Shown: positions 10,092-24,812 of the stretch, piece after piece
Numbering within the stretch: position 1 is the first letter of the stretch
How the letters are laid out: each line of letters opens with the position of its first letter
Source of the DNA: Gemmatimonadota bacterium
Lineage (GTDB): Bacteria > Gemmatimonadota > Gemmatimonadetes > Gemmatimonadales > Gemmatimonadaceae
Direction of reading: 5' to 3'
Length of the DNA: 64,000 nt
Assembly (NCBI GenBank): GCA_021324775.1
Contig: JAJPIM010000035.1
Coordinates: 1-64,000 of the forward strand
Notes under the pieces: generated by a model
What the model was told of the DNA's origin: nothing
Seen by the model: the letters and a program-made list of their open reading frames with translations, nothing else
Databases searched by the model: none
Program-made: the position numbers and the translations under genes

Positions 10092-10165
10092 CGGGGCGTA
10101 GCGTAGCCTGGTATCGCGCCTGCTTTGGGAGCAGGAGGTCGCCGGTTCAAATCCGGCCGCCCCGA
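10092..10165 (+). tRNA. tRNA-Pro(TGG)
   Basis: A complete 74-nt cloverleaf: acceptor CGGGGCG/CGCCCCG, anticodon stem CCTGC/GCAGG with loop TTTGGGA (anticodon TGG), T arm GCCGG-TTCAAAT-CCGGC, discriminator A. CCA is not encoded. No integrated element is visible at its 3' end. Confidence 0.96.
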
Positions 10166-10329
10166 TTGGGCGCCATCCTCGGCGGCAACCGCCTAAGTGT
10201 TGCGAGGCGTGTCCGGAAGTGACGGACCCCTCCGTCGATGCCTCGCTACCCCGTGATCGATGGTCCGCAGCCGGCGACGACACAGCCGTAATGCCCGCCG
10301 CCGGCGTAGCCACTACCCGAGGACAACGC

Positions 10330-11883
10330 ATGAGACGTGGAACGCTCGCCGCCGTGATCGTGGCGCTCGCCAGCACGCACGCCGCCGCCGCGCAGACGGG
10401 GCCCGACGATGCGAGGCTCATTGCGGCCGCGCGCCGGTTCGTCCCCGAGGTCATGCGCGTCGACGGGGTGCGCGGGATCGAGGTCGCCGTCGCGCGACAC
10501 GGGACCGTCATCTGGGAGCAGGGCTTCGGCACCGCGAACGTCGCCGACGGGGCGCCCATGACGAGCACCACGGTCTTCTCAGCCGGCTCGATGAGCAAGA
10601 CGTATACGGCGACCGCGGTGATGCAACTGGTCGAGCAGGGCGCGCTCGCTCTCGATGAGCCGATCAATACCTACTTGCGCCGGGGCGCCGGCTACGAGGT
10701 CGTGAACCCGCTCGGCGCGCGCGATATCACGGTCAGAGATCTGCTCACGCATCGGTCAGGCCTGACGAGCGATGCCGCCGGCAGCGAGCTCGCCATCCCG
10801 GCGCCGCTCGCGGCGTACCTTCGGGCGCAGTACGCCCGGCCGATGCTCCCGAGCTACTCCGGTGCGTCGCTCCCGACGTGGAGCGCCAAGGTCGGGGAGA
10901 AGTTCCAGTACTCGAACCTCGGCGTCGCGACGCTCGGCCTCCTCGTCCAGATCACCAACCCTGAACACTTGAGCTTCGCGGATTACGTTCAGCACCACAT
11001 CTTCGAGCCGCTGGGCATGCGGCACAGCCAGTTTCCGCCGGTTCGGGACTCGGCCCACTTGCACCCCGACCTCGCCCGCCGCTTCGCGCGCGGATACGCG
11101 AGACTCGGGCCGGTCGACCTCCCCTCGCCGCAGATCTACCTGGCCGACTACCCCGCCGGCTCGCTGGTCACCACGGCCGGAGATCATATCCGGCTCCTGC
11201 TCGCCTACATGAACGGCGGCAGCTATGACGGCCACCGCATTCTTCAGCCAGAGACCGTGAAGTTGATGCTCACCGAGGGCCCGACCTCGGGCATGGGGCT
11301 CATATGGTTCCTCCGAGACATCGGGAAGCCTGACTTCAGCTTCTCGCACGGCGGCGCCTACATGTTCGGCTGGCGCAACGAGTTTCAGGCGTACCCGGGC
11401 CTCGATCTGGCCACCGTCGTCGCGACCAATCAATGGGACATGCTCTCGCCGCATTACGGCCGCGCCTATTCCGATGTCCTCGACTTCCTCGCCGCGTGGG
11501 TCGAGCACGAGCGCGACGGCATGCGACATCCCCAGCCCGACCACACGTGGGCCTGGAAGTGCTCCTACGTCGTGGGCCTCGTGTGGGTCGACCAGATCGA
11601 AGGCGGCCTCGGCACCCAGACCCCACTCACCGCGACCGATATCGACCGCGCAGCGCGGAGCGCGCGGCCGCTGCACGCCGGCGGGCCGGACATGTGGGAC
11701 GAGGCCGGGTTCCGCGCCGGCGTGAATGACATGAGCCACATCCCTCTGCGCCCCGACTCGATCCGGGCGTTCCTGAAATCCGACCGGCTGCGCGTTTGGC
11801 CCGAGGAGCTCAACCTGATCTATGCCGCACTGGGGGCACCAAACGACTGGGTGCCTTGGCCGGAGTTCGCCCCGGCGCCTTGA
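10330..11883 (+). CDS. Serine beta-lactamase-like hydrolase, exported
   Basis: A 517-aa exported protein of the beta-lactamase/penicillin-binding (class C, PF00144-type) family. A signal peptide ends near residue 21 (THAAAAQ). The catalytic motifs are SMSK (about 86-89), YSN in FQYSNLG, and SHGG in place of KTG. A C-terminal extension of about 120 residues follows the hydrolase domain. Such proteins are usually esterases, D-aminopeptidases or peptidases, not true beta-lactamases. ATG at 10330 is chosen because the upstream in-frame ATG (10219) would bury the signal peptide. It converges on pilX with only 27 bp between. Confidence 0.87.
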   Translation: MRRGTLAAVIVALASTHAAAAQTGPDDARLIAAARRFVPEVMRVDGVRGIEVAVARHGTVIWEQGFGTANVADGAPMTSTTVFSAGSMSKTYTATAVMQLVEQGALALDEPINTYLRRGAGYEVVNPLGARDITVRDLLTHRSGLTSDAAGSELAIPAPLAAYLRAQYARPMLPSYSGASLPTWSAKVGEKFQYSNLGVATLGLLVQITNPEHLSFADYVQHHIFEPLGMRHSQFPPVRDSAHLHPDLARRFARGYARLGPVDLPSPQIYLADYPAGSLVTTAGDHIRLLLAYMNGGSYDGHRILQPETVKLMLTEGPTSGMGLIWFLRDIGKPDFSFSHGGAYMFGWRNEFQAYPGLDLATVVATNQWDMLSPHYGRAYSDVLDFLAAWVEHERDGMRHPQPDHTWAWKCSYVVGLVWVDQIEGGLGTQTPLTATDIDRAARSARPLHAGGPDMWDEAGFRAGVNDMSHIPLRPDSIRAFLKSDRLRVWPEELNLIYAALGAPNDWVPWPEFAPAP

Positions 11884-11910: not shown

Positions 11911-13002
11911 TCAGTACCCGTTCCAGTTGTCTACCCACGCGTTCGAATAGCCAACCAGTTGGCCGCCCGACGCCGCTATCGCTTTGGCTACGTTGCAGGA
12001 GTTGTACTGGAATGTCTTGTTGCCGTTGCCGAGCGAGTTTTGTGGAACCGACTGCCCCAATTGTTCGTTCAGACCGGTGACGACCGCACCGTTGACGGTA
12101 TTGTTTCCATTCGACGTCAGATTGCCGCCCACGAGGATCACGCCATTCCAACTGGTGCTGCCGCTGATGCTCAGATTCCCGGTTACGATCAACAGTCCCT
12201 GGCCGGACCCGGGCAGGCTGGCGTCGCCCACCATCATGATGACCGGCCAGTAATTCGGGTTGCTGAAGCTCGGCCAGGTCCCGGAGGGAATCGTGATGCT
12301 CGGCTGGGCGGCATTGTTGTTCACGATATCGTTCCAATCGATGCCCGTCGACGAGTCGGCCTGGCCCTGCGTGCCAAGATTTTCGACCGGCGGATTCCCG
12401 GTGACCGGGCTCGTCGGGCCGGTATAGCCCGGATTCGTCACCGTGGCGACCCCCGGGACGGTCGGCATCACTCCGCAAGCGTCAGTACCGTTTAGCGAGC
12501 CTGACGTGCCGCTCTTGCTCAACCCGGTCAGAGCCGTCCAGGCCGAGAGCACGTTCATGGTCAGGGGCTGCCAGATCCCGTATTCGGCGACTGTGCGCTC
12601 GGCCTGAGCGGTGCCGCTCAGCATGGCCGCCGTGCTCACACCGTGCGCCCGGATCGCGTAACCGTAGCGACCCGACACGGTGTCCTTCCGCACCTGGGTC
12701 AGAACCACGTCGGCGTAGCCACCGCTCAAGGTGACACGTGCCGACTCGGACGCCGCCGGCGGCACCGCCGTGAAACCCAACGAATCACGCTTCGCTATGA
12801 AGAGCTCGAGGCCGGATTCGGCAAGCGCGAAGGCATCGACGTTCGCCCCCTGGTTTGCGCTCACGCGCGCTTCGGTGCTCGCCGCTGCAAACGCAGCCGC
12901 CAGCAGCACCGAGACAACCACTATCGCGAGAATCACCATCAGCAGCGTCATCCCGCGCCGGTAGTTGATCCGTCGCATACGCGGCTCCGTTGCCGTCGTC
13001 AT
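11911..13002 (-). CDS. PilX-like pilus assembly protein, copy 1
   Basis: A 363-aa inner-membrane-anchored protein. The N-terminus has an RRG-MTLLMVILAIV segment with one long hydrophobic helix (about 17-42), as in PilX/minor pilin N-termini. The C-terminal half (about 250-330) is Gly/Asn-rich with repeated short strands such as LIVTGNL, WNGVILVGGNL and NGAVVTGLN, suggesting a beta-solenoid fold. It is last in the operon fimT-pilV-pilW-pilX and overlaps pilW by 4 nt. A close paralogue sits at 14983-16071. Likely part of a type IV pilus or type II secretion pseudopilus tip. Confidence 0.82.
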   Translation of the reverse strand: MTTATEPRMRRINYRRGMTLLMVILAIVVVSVLLAAAFAAASTEARVSANQGANVDAFALAESGLELFIAKRDSLGFTAVPPAASESARVTLSGGYADVVLTQVRKDTVSGRYGYAIRAHGVSTAAMLSGTAQAERTVAEYGIWQPLTMNVLSAWTALTGLSKSGTSGSLNGTDACGVMPTVPGVATVTNPGYTGPTSPVTGNPPVENLGTQGQADSSTGIDWNDIVNNNAAQPSITIPSGTWPSFSNPNYWPVIMMVGDASLPGSGQGLLIVTGNLSISGSTSWNGVILVGGNLTSNGNNTVNGAVVTGLNEQLGQSVPQNSLGNGNKTFQYNSCNVAKAIAASGGQLVGYSNAWVDNWNGY

Positions 13003-13841
13003 TTCAGCAGATTGTTGAAGAACACGCCGGTAGTGATCTGGGCCGTCATGACGGCCGGCTGCCCCTGCGGTGTGCGTTCACTCTGCGCGTTGAAAACGAG
13101 CTCGATTCCGCGCATTGTGGTCAGCGGGCTCGGTACAGCGGTTTGCGCCGAATCGCTACCCACGATGAAAAATTTGAACTCCGCCGTCGGGGCGAACGGG
13201 GCCACGAGTTCATCCGTCTCGCCCGTGCCAATCACCGTGCGCCATAGGGCCGTGCGGCCGGGAAGCGTGACCGATGGGGCGAACGAGTAGGTCAGACGCT
13301 GGGTCAGAAACACCGGCGTTCCCACGGCCGTGATCGCCGGCAGCGTTGACGGGAGCGCGGGGGCGATCGCCACTACCAAGCCCCCGGAGAGTACCGTGAC
13401 ATGCGCCGTGGTGCAGAGGGATGCGGTGCCGGCCGTGAGGGTAGTGCCCGTTTCGACGTAGTGATACGCGCCGAGCGAGTCTCGCCACGCGTAGCCCGTG
13501 AAGCCCGCGGTCGCGTACGCGACCGAGTCTACGGGCAACAACGCGATGGTGGTTAGGGCCGCGGTATTCGCGCACACGATTCCCATCGCGTAGGGCACCC
13601 GCACGGTTACCGAGGTGTTCGTCGCGGACACGACACCGCCGGTGGCCTCCACCATCCGCAGGTCCGAGATGGCAGCGTTGATCCCGGTGCGCGATACGAA
13701 CCGCGCCAGCCGCAACTGGGTCTGCAGGTCGTACGAGCGCGCTTGCGCCACGTACAGGCGCGTGAGCGCCGCCCCGATCATGGCGACTATCACCACCGTG
13801 ATCATCATCTCGGCCAGCGTCAACCCTCGGCGTCGCATCAT
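12999..13841 (-). CDS. PilW-like prepilin
   Basis: A 280-aa prepilin with a short basic leader and the class III cleavage site MMRRRG|LTLAEMM, Glu at +5, followed by a hydrophobic alpha1 helix (about 7-28). The globular part is unlike known families by eye, but position and length fit PilW. Start and stop overlap both neighbours by 4 nt (ATGA), so it is translated with them. Expected to be processed by PilD and inserted in the inner membrane. Confidence 0.82.
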   Translation of the reverse strand: MMRRRGLTLAEMMITVVIVAMIGAALTRLYVAQARSYDLQTQLRLARFVSRTGINAAISDLRMVEATGGVVSATNTSVTVRVPYAMGIVCANTAALTTIALLPVDSVAYATAGFTGYAWRDSLGAYHYVETGTTLTAGTASLCTTAHVTVLSGGLVVAIAPALPSTLPAITAVGTPVFLTQRLTYSFAPSVTLPGRTALWRTVIGTGETDELVAPFAPTAEFKFFIVGSDSAQTAVPSPLTTMRGIELVFNAQSERTPQGQPAVMTAQITTGVFFNNLLK

Positions 13842-14227
13842 GGGGAGTCGAACGGGTTCTCAGCGGGCTGCGTGCGTCGCAGCACCACGGTGTCCCCCGC
13901 GAAGAGCGTGTTGGTCGGCGTGACGATAATCGTGACGAGCATCTGCTGGGCTGAGAGAGTGGTCACCTGGACGTTCAGCGTGTAGGGCACCGGCGCGGTG
14001 CTGACGGTCGTCGTACCGGCCTTCGCGCTGAGTGAATCGAAAGGCAGCGCGGCGAACTTGTTCACGATCTGTAGCATCGCGCCGTCCCGCGCCCCTCCGC
14101 CGGACAAGGCGTAGGATCGGCGGGAGATCACGAAGTCGGCCCTCGCGATGCCGCCGACGAGAATGGCGAGCAGCGAGATCGAGATCATGGCCTCCACGAG
14201 CGAGACACCACGCCGGTTCCGCTTCAT
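13838..14227 (-). CDS. PilV-like prepilin
   Basis: A 129-aa minor prepilin: leader MKRNRRG|VSLVEAM with the +5 Glu, hydrophobic helix about residues 8-30, small C-terminal domain. The ATG at 14227 overlaps the end of the GspH/FimT gene (ATGA); a GTG/ATG further upstream would spoil the leader. Second gene of the prepilin operon. Confidence 0.82.
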   Translation of the reverse strand: MKRNRRGVSLVEAMISISLLAILVGGIARADFVISRRSYALSGGGARDGAMLQIVNKFAALPFDSLSAKAGTTTVSTAPVPYTLNVQVTTLSAQQMLVTIIVTPTNTLFAGDTVVLRRTQPAENPFDSP

Positions 14228-14688
14228 GTCGCCCGCGCCCACCCGACGCGTGACATCGTGACCTGGTGTGAGTACCCGCCGGCCCAGACCGTGACGACCA
14301 ACGCACTCGAGGTAAAGCCGTTGGGGAAGATGTCCACCGGAGTGACCGAGAACGACAGGGAATCAACCTCGCAGGGTTCTCCCGCGCCGAGGTGAAGCGT
14401 GGAGAGGAGCGTACCACTCGTCCGGTCCGTGACGGTGATGGACTGTTTGTCGGTGCCCCGCGCGATCCGCATCGGCATGCGCTCCCGCGCGGCGTTCGTC
14501 GCCGCCAGGGACAGACCTTGCGCGACGAGTATGGCGGCCTGGTTGACCCGGGAATGCGTCGACGTGCTCTGAATCTTCGGCATCGCGAGCGCAGTCAGCA
14601 GGCCTACCATCACGACCACGATCATCATCTCGATCACGGTGATGCCGCGCCGCCCCGTCGCCTGCATGCCTCTCATGTGATGCATCAT
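14224..14688 (-). CDS. GspH/FimT-like pseudopilin
   Basis: A 154-aa pseudopilin with processing site QATGRRG|ITVIEMM, +5 Glu and a hydrophobic helix running to about residue 40, then a GspH/FimT-type soluble domain. Four Met codons are possible starts (14688, 14685, 14676, 14667); a purine-rich stretch before 14688 slightly favours it. First gene of the operon, preceded by the duplicated leader (14757-14976). Confidence 0.8.
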   Translation of the reverse strand: MMHHMRGMQATGRRGITVIEMMIVVVMVGLLTALAMPKIQSTSTHSRVNQAAILVAQGLSLAATNAARERMPMRIARGTDKQSITVTDRTSGTLLSTLHLGAGEPCEVDSLSFSVTPVDIFPNGFTSSALVVTVWAGGYSHQVTMSRVGWARAT

Positions 14689-14756
14689 GTGCCGTCTCGG
14701 TGCTCGGCCAGCCGGACAAGCCCGGTCTCGGGTCCCGTCCATCCAACCGGCGGTTT

Positions 14757-14976
14757 TCCTGCGTGAAGAAAGCTCTGGACCTGGACCAGGGCCGGCTATC
14801 ACGCGGCGGCCACACATCCTCACAAGTTGCGGGGCCAGTGGCGCTTCTGTGATGATTTGAGTGGTCTCAGATTGTGAGCAAACGCACAATCCGATCTTGG
14901 CGGGCCTTTCGATAGGGGACTGGTTCGCCAAGGCGGAGGTCACGCCCTCTGCACGCCCGGCCAGCCGGCTGTCGTG
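14757..14976 (-). repeat. Prepilin operon leader, copy 1
   Basis: This non-coding stretch of about 220 bp is closely similar to 16085-16302, in the same orientation. Conserved parts include a first hairpin (AGGGCG/CGCCTT, 14930-14948), a second stem (TTGGCG/CGCCAA, 14897-14931), a 22-bp palindrome (14870-14891) and a block ending at the junction with the fimT start region. It is the likely promoter and 5' leader of fimT-pilV-pilW-pilX. Confidence 0.8.
14870..14891. promoter_or_regulatory. CRP-like palindrome, leader copy 1
   Basis: GATTGTG and CACAATC form perfect arms around 8 nt. Read as a CRP-type site it gives TGTGA-N6-GCACA, one mismatch from TGTGA-N6-TCACA. It is kept in the other leader copy, about 180 nt upstream of fimT. 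Binding by a CRP/FNR-family protein is inferred only. Confidence 0.5.
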
Positions 14977-14982
14977 GCGCGT

Positions 14983-16071
14983 TCAGTACCCGTTCCAGTT
15001 GTCCAGCCACGCGTTGGTATAGCCGACCAACTGGCCCTGTCCTGCCATTGCCTTGGCCACATTGCAGGAGTTGTACTGGAACGTCTTGTTCCCGTTGCCG
15101 AGGGAGTTCTGTGCCACCGTCTGCCCCAATTCCACATTCAGACCGGTGACGACCGCACCGGCGACGGTATTGTTTCCGTTCGATGTCAGATTGCCACCCA
15201 CGAGGAGCACGCCGTTCCAGGTGACGTTGCCGTTGAGGGTCAGATTCCCGGTTACGATCAATGTGCCTTGTCCCGATCCGGGGAGGCTGGTGTTGCCCGT
15301 CATCATGATGGTCGGCCAGTAATTCGGGTTGCTGAAGCTGGGCCAGGTCCCGGAGGGAATCGTGATGCTCGGCTGCGCGGCATTGTTGTTCACGATACCG
15401 TTCCAATCGACATTCGTCGCTGCGATCGCCTGCGCCTGCGTGCCAAGATTGTCGATCGGCGGATTCCCGCTGACCGGGCCCGTCGGGCCGGTATAGCCCG
15501 GATTCGTCACGGTGGCGACCCCCGGAAGAGTCGCCGCCGCTCCGCAGGCGTCCGTACCGCTGAGCGAGCCTGAGTTGCCGTTCTTGCTCAACCCGGTCAG
15601 CGTCGTCCAGGCCGAGAGCACGTTCATGGTCCCTGTCTGCCAGACCCCGTATTCAGCGACTGTGCGCTCGGCCGGGGCCGTGCCGCTCAGCGTGGCCCCC
15701 GTGCTCACACCGTGCGCCCGGATCGCGTAACCGTAGCGACCTGACACGGTGTCCTTCCGCACCTGGGCCAGAACCACGTCGGCGTAGCCGCCGCTCAAGG
15801 TGACACGTGCCGATTCTGACGCCGCCGGCGGTGTCGCCGTGAAACCGAGCGAGTCGCGCTTCGCCATGAAGAGCTCCAGGCCGGACTCGGCAAGCGCGAA
15901 GGCATCGACGTTCGCCCCCTGGTTTGCGCTCACACGCGCTTCGGTGCTCGCCGCCGCAAACGCTGCTGCCAGCAGCACCGAGAGAACCATGATCGCGAGA
16001 ATCACCATCAGCAGGGTCATCCCGCGCCGGTAGTTGATCCGTCGCATATGGGGCTCCGTTGGCGTCGTCAT
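14983..16071 (-). CDS. PilX-like pilus assembly protein, copy 2
   Basis: A 362-aa close paralogue of the protein at 11911-13002, nearly colinear along the whole length: the same RRINYRRG-MTLLMVILAI anchor, the same Gly/Asn-rich strands near the C-terminus and the same WNGY end. The start at 16071 (MTTPTEP) matches that of copy 1; a TTG further upstream is also open. Unlike copy 1 it is not preceded by other prepilins but joins directly to a second copy of the operon leader, so it likely has its own promoter. Confidence 0.82.
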   Translation of the reverse strand: MTTPTEPHMRRINYRRGMTLLMVILAIMVLSVLLAAAFAAASTEARVSANQGANVDAFALAESGLELFMAKRDSLGFTATPPAASESARVTLSGGYADVVLAQVRKDTVSGRYGYAIRAHGVSTGATLSGTAPAERTVAEYGVWQTGTMNVLSAWTTLTGLSKNGNSGSLSGTDACGAAATLPGVATVTNPGYTGPTGPVSGNPPIDNLGTQAQAIAATNVDWNGIVNNNAAQPSITIPSGTWPSFSNPNYWPTIMMTGNTSLPGSGQGTLIVTGNLTLNGNVTWNGVLLVGGNLTSNGNNTVAGAVVTGLNVELGQTVAQNSLGNGNKTFQYNSCNVAKAMAGQGQLVGYTNAWLDNWNGY

Positions 16072-16084
16072 TCCGGCAGTTTCC

Positions 16085-16302
16085 TGCATGAACAAAGGTC
16101 TGGATTTGGACCAGATCCGACTATCACGCGGCGGTCACACATGCTCACAAGTTGCGGGGGCAGTGACACTTCTGTTATGGGTGGAGCGTCACAGATTGTG
16201 ATCCAGCACACAACCCGATATTTGGCGGGCCTTCGATAGGGGACTCGGTCGCCAGGGCGGAGGTCACGCCCTGCGCACGCGCACCCAGCCGGCGCTCGTT
16301 AT
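16085..16302 (-). repeat. Prepilin operon leader, copy 2
   Basis: Second copy of the leader found at 14757-14976. The first hairpin is now perfect (AGGGCG/CGCCCT, 16254-16272) where copy 1 has a G-U pair, and the second stem is kept as TGGCG/CGCCA (16223-16254). Similarity stops right where pilX copy 2 begins, indicating a recombination joint. Confidence 0.8.
16194..16215. promoter_or_regulatory. CRP-like palindrome, leader copy 2
   Basis: TGTGA-N6-ACACA at the equivalent position of leader copy 2; one mismatch from the CRP consensus, but at the same site as the mismatch in copy 1. About 125 nt upstream of pilX copy 2. Confidence 0.45.
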
Positions 16303-24687: not shown

Positions 24688-24718
24688 GCGGCTCGCGCGG
24701 GCGGCTGAACGAGTGTGG

Positions 24719-24812
24719 CGGGAGCGTGTGGGAATCGAACCCACCCAACCCGCCAATGGCGGGCCGAAAAGGTTTTGAAGACCTCTAGGACCACCAGGCC
24801 CTATCCACCCCC
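24719..24812 (-). tRNA. selC: tRNA-Sec(TCA), selenocysteine tRNA
   Basis: A 94-nt leftward tRNA with all hallmarks of bacterial selC: anticodon loop CTTCAAA (TCA, reads UGA), an extended 6-bp D stem AGGGCC/GGTCCT with a 4-nt loop, a long variable arm with stem CCCGCC/GGCGGG, T arm GTGGG-TTCGATT-CCCAC, an 8-nt acceptor, discriminator G, and CCA encoded just after (24716-24718). The eighth acceptor pair is G-A, a small irregularity. It follows selD by 39 nt and probably shares its transcript. Confidence 0.95.

Follow-up and report, generated by a model that had tools for sequence, protein, structure and literature searches.

In the FimU/FimT-PilV-PilW-PilX-PilY1 operons of type IVa pili from Pseudomonas and Myxococcus, published models put PilX adjacent to the tip, and several minor-pilin clusters occur in one Myxococcus genome (PMC13190605). 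A location at the tip only was argued for ComZ of Thermus thermophilus, which carries a solenoid inserted in its pilin sheet (PMC6561018, PDB 6qvi), and for the bulky module of the modular pilin PilB of Streptococcus sanguinis (PMC8179133). Minor-pilin paralogs are known as well: Xylella fastidiosa has PilX1-2 and FimT1-3, and their mutants show differing roles (PMC9956873).

Here, we analysed a prepilin locus in a 64,000-nucleotide stretch of a Gemmatimonadota genome (contig JAJPIM010000035.1, positions 1 to 64,000; the window). It encodes the same four minor prepilins as the FimU/FimT-type operons, but there is no pilY1 in the operon, and an extra pilX stands alone after a duplicate of the operon's leader. 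Duplicated minor pilins were kept here as in X. fastidiosa. However, the X. fastidiosa paralogs are for the most part found in two operons located in separate regions, whereas here pilX alone was kept, beside its parent operon. The best explanation, to which we assign a probability of roughly 70%, is that a probably acquired operon was duplicated in tandem as a whole and that fimT-pilV-pilW were then lost from one copy, leaving an extra PilX that may serve for supply or as a variant tip. The locus makes a likely route to a minor-pilin paralog visible: the whole operon would be copied and then reduced to the gene for the probable tip, and related genomes represent other stages.

Architecture of the prepilin locus

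All elements of the locus are on the minus strand, in the order leader 2, pilX2, leader 1, fimT, pilV, pilW and pilX1, as read from the sequence and its open reading frames. Leader 2 (16302-16080), the 5' UTR or upstream region of pilX2, ends in the ribosome-binding site AGGAAA (16085-16080) and is followed by the fusion joint (16079-16072) and by pilX2 (16071-14983), an intact gene for a modular PilX/GspK-like prepilin of 362 amino acids. Leader 1 (14976-14752), with AGGAAAA at 14760-14754, is the corresponding region of the operon. Behind this motif, fimT starts at ATG 14742 (14742-14224); it encodes a fimT/GspH-like prepilin as the first operon gene, a synteny kept in relatives. The pilV-like (14227-13838) and pilW-like (13841-12999) prepilin genes and the intact pilX1 (13002-11911, 363 amino acids) follow, each overlapping its predecessor by ATGA. 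Every element proposed from the sequence alone, including the second leader joined to a second pilX upstream of the operon, was found, and on alignment the leaders are 81% and the PilX proteins 85% identical. X1 and X2 are the sole two pilX copies in the genome of 4.19 Mb. An assembly duplicate was ruled out, since the copies differ at about 15-19% of bases.

Four consecutive prepilins with N-terminal signals, by which a type IVa minor pilin operon is recognised, are present. PilV and PilW passed the Pfam cut-off for N_methyl; FimT and PilX scored below the Pfam cut-offs, yet their alignments cover the N-terminus (N_methyl/GspH and PilX_N, respectively). For PilX_N, the two copies reached 24.6 and 23.3 bits, short of the curated cut-off of 25.5, and 15 of 25 PilX family members had a match with E no greater than 1 (the best at 9.4e-07). 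Pilus motors are present in the genome, with PilB/PilT-type T2SSE matches at C3:191593 and C3:193069, and the start of a PilA-type prepilin lies at the end of contig C3, cut by the contig end. A genome-wide search for PilY1 gave no match, and the control genomes were equally without a match.

PilX is predicted to be a modular pilin

An AlphaFold2 model of pilX2 (25 sequences; mean pLDDT 84, pTM 0.67) predicted a helix at residues 17-70 and a pilin sheet at 85-146; residues 147-336 form an inserted domain, with 346-357 as the final strand. The pilin part of the model aligned with minor pseudopilins of type II secretion, and the inserted domain resembled DUF3494 ice-binding folds in structure alignments (Z of about 14 and rmsd near 3, at 10-18% identity in most cases). 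At the sequence level, PilX matched DUF3494 neither in Pfam (up to E 1) nor among ice-binding proteins in the PDB (up to E 10). A Foldseek search by itself returned nothing below E 0.001. The predicted DUF3494 likeness is one of fold, not of family membership, and carries no implication for ice binding. PDB sequence matches of PilX to ribosomal protein bL21 were judged to be chance.

In its AlphaFold2 model, PilX shares with ComZ a pilin module with a large beta-solenoid in the sheet. The inserted domain is nevertheless closer to the DUF3494 folds than PilX is to the whole of ComZ (6qvi; Z 9.0, rmsd 11.9), and this predicted likeness carries no implication for DNA binding. Like PilB of S. sanguinis, PilX bears a bulky module on a pilin. 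The model makes PilX the probable tip subunit: a pilin of the GspK/PilX type whose sheet carries an inserted beta-solenoid.

Leaders and the joint

The two leaders show 41 differences in 221 aligned columns, and in a genome search the pair aligned at 83% (E 1e-57). No third leader copy was detected in the 4.19 Mb, where other hits were chance-level matches of 17-36 nt. We ruled out a dispersed repeat, given only two genomic copies and no convincing homolog in 98 relatives or 5' of the relatives' operons. Rfam searches with both leaders gave no family up to E 5, including RF01051 (c-di-GMP-I) and related models; a known RNA was rejected on this basis and because the folding energy is unremarkable (z -1.8 and -0.7). 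Conservation as a mark of function was rejected too, as the leader diverged as fast as silent sites.

Leader 1 ends in GCAGGAAAACCGCCGGTTGGATG, whose ATG (14742) begins the fimT frame, and leader 2 ends in GCAGGAAACTGCCGGAATGACG, whose ATG (16071) begins pilX2; the end of pilW before pilX1 reads CAATCTGCTGAAATGACG. At the joint, GCAGGAAA belongs to the leader and AATGACG to pilX, and the letters in between can be assigned to either side: CTGCCGGA is readable as leader (CCGCCGG) or as the final codons of pilW (CTGCTGAA). In the upstream unit, the pilX ATG thereby takes over the place of the fimT ATG and follows the same AGGAAA with 8 nt between them. The sequence-only reading had put the joint at the ATGA of the pilX start; the pilX ATG does stand behind the leader's AGGAAA, but the joint itself can be located with a precision of about 8 nt and no better. 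Both pilX copies have a second in-frame ATG (MRRINYRRG) downstream of a GGAG, which, judged by sequence, could instead be the true pilX start.

No sigma-70-like consensus promoter was seen in the stretch, though this organism may rely on different signals. No obvious terminator separates pilX2 from leader 1, so transcription from leader 2 could continue into the operon. With pilX2 fused to its own leader, PilX could be made in two ways, with X1 as the last product of an ATGA-coupled polycistron and X2 from the first gene right behind a leader with presumed promoter activity.

Genomic setting and probable transfer

Neither of the two other genomes in the genus carries the operon. In the congener G002, rdgB, tRNA-Pro and a beta-lactamase-like gene are consecutive on one strand. 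In the window, tRNA-Pro (10092-10165) and the gene for the beta-lactamase-like serine hydrolase (10219-11883), which together form the plus-strand flank 10092-11883, are inverted relative to G002, with the pilin locus separating them from rdgB. The closest pilX relatives were found in another family (f2, 55-62%) rather than in the genome's own family (f1, 45-49%). Monophyly of f1 was rejected with pilX (AU p 0.003) and pilW (p 0.006), a test that concerns the whole family and not this genome alone. As far as sequence comparison can tell, the locus was likely acquired by transfer from outside the lineage, and the complete minor-pilin operon (leader, fimT, pilV, pilW, pilX) probably came from another Gemmatimonadota family.

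The tRNA-Pro is also inverted relative to rdgB when compared with G001. G002 contains an exact 30-nt piece of tRNA-Pro (L083 2030-2059), about 9 kb from the intact tRNA-Pro and in the same orientation, which looks like an old attachment site or a tRNA remnant around a variable region. Elsewhere in the window, ARAGORN reported a selenocysteine tRNA (24716-24812).

Repeated multiplication of pilX in relatives

The order fimT-pilV-pilW-pilX, with pilX last, is standard in relatives of three families within the order, so the full operon is likely the ancestral state. Several of these relatives have multiplied pilX separately, on their own, and several further times. G152 has an intact operon tandem, fimT-V-W-X followed by fimT-V-W-X-X. 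In G088 the second unit is cut down to pilV'-pilX' (the contig join being inferred through a repeat), pilX-pilX pairs occur in G062, G124 and G148, and an extra pilX stands alone in G135; in all six genomes pilX is the gene in extra copy. With seven candidates scored per genome, the count of extra pilX genes across the order is a lower bound. In a larger tree, the pilX pairs of G062, G088, G124 and G135 and the adjacent copies of G152 were sisters, in contrast to the two copies of G148, which may be older or exchanged. Viral contigs, and a first protein-only scan of genome contigs, gave no matches.

Across these genomes, one probable tip gene has multiplied repeatedly, which is of more interest than the single duplication in the window. 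If PilX is indeed at the tip, the genomes offer a natural series in which to ask what makes pilX the multiplied gene and whether the solenoid pilin is a tip adhesin.

Two other pilX arrangements were observed. G057 has an orphan frame of 129 amino acids (L055 7961-8350) that comprises the C-terminal tip of PilX only, about 5 kb upstream of an intact pilX. In another relative (L190 5812-8446), pilX is on the strand opposite to fimT-pilV-pilW, a further rearrangement of this gene.

Divergence and history of the two units

In a tree of 36 proteins, X1 and X2 did not group with different families of relatives but were sisters (support 100/100) on near-equal branches (0.085/0.087). The leader distance of 0.21 equals in effect the dS of 0.20 over pilX codons 1-240; leader and most of pilX are of one age and were probably copied together. 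Over the whole gene, dN was 0.081 and dS 0.343, and dN/dS of about 0.24-0.32 is well below 1, so both copies appear to have been kept functional; purifying selection on both fits their retention. For codons 241-363, dS rose to 0.48, with a breakpoint near codon 249 (permutation p 0.002). This higher silent divergence means that the evolution of the two copies was not uniform along the gene: the last third is mosaic, either because later conversion homogenised the leader and the first two thirds or because one copy gained a diverged 3' part.

The proposal that the whole prepilin operon was duplicated and fimT-pilV-pilW lost from one copy thus draws support from the sister relationship of X1 and X2, the equal divergence of leader and pilX, and relatives' operons that end in pilX. 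On this account, the whole operon would have been duplicated in tandem once, and the upstream copy would then have shed fimT-pilV-pilW; through this deletion the pilX start codon would have come to lie directly behind the leader and its ribosome-binding site. The single-copy ancestor could be traced in part: more distant relatives have the full operon, but a genome combining this leader with a single operon did not turn up. The leader had no convincing counterpart among the 98 sampled relatives, and the intact intermediate of this lineage is therefore unseen.

The strongest competitor, which we consider improbable though worth keeping in mind, is that a leader-pilX segment of a diverged strain recombined beside the resident operon (a xenologous copy). 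The mosaic of silent divergence would suit such an event, as would a locus that looks horizontally acquired as a whole, sits in a rearranged tRNA-Pro region and is missing from both congeners; against it, X1 and X2 group as sisters in trees of every sequence sampled, and leader and first two thirds of pilX share one age. Somewhat less probable again is a single complex rearrangement in which a template switch copied leader and pilX only, so that a full operon tandem never existed. The duplication is confined to just these two elements, and at the joint the leader end (CCGCCGG) and the pilW end (CTGCTGA) are briefly similar, but a precise two-template event is demanded, and operon tandems, full in G152 and partial in G088, do occur. 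Very unlikely is an older leader-pilX tandem with fimT-pilV-pilW inserted into one unit: the joint sequence alone is equally compatible with it, but the fimT-pilV-pilW-pilX order conserved across families of the order strongly disfavours it, and the ATGA-type overlap of pilW and pilX is also found in relatives (for example L105 and L107).

Divergence of the predicted tip

If the operon was duplicated whole and then trimmed, the retained second PilX, which is partly diverged and has a translation start of its own, would most likely serve either to increase the supply of PilX or to give some pili a variant tip; the second copy may act as a separate supply of such a variant. In helix and sheet, X1 and X2 differ at 13 of 147 positions; beyond them, they differ at 42 of 215 (Fisher p 0.007). 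This bias towards the tip is suggestive only, because ortholog pairs show ratios of tip to pilin divergence of 0.85 to 5.2, with X1/X2 at the high end of that range. Among paralog pairs, the tip domain was more diverged than the pilin module in six of seven. Tentatively, and as an idea that could well prove wrong, pilX of Gemmatimonadota might encode a swappable solenoid tip, with recurrent selection acting on both its copy number and its sequence: operons would duplicate, the other minor pilins would be lost, an extra pilX would be kept (here under its own leader copy), and mosaic exchange in the last third would diversify the tip.

Riboswitches upstream of related operons

A c-di-GMP-I type riboswitch lies 5' of fimT in five of the six f2 relatives with an available upstream region (directly before the gene at L105 7641-7734, L106 7173-7256, L107 4710-4793, L108 7559-7641 and L109 2497-2580). 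The same operon is preceded by a c-di-GMP riboswitch in some relatives and by an unrelated leader here. The window's own genome has four c-di-GMP-I riboswitches, all outside this locus. Two of these (L156 5626-5728 and 8706-8806) precede genes whose products appear to be exported, one product being large and rich in repeats. In G119, two near-alike tandem pilA genes (L105 6287-7471) are located upstream of the riboswitch-preceded operon, with PilB/PilT-type genes on the same contig.
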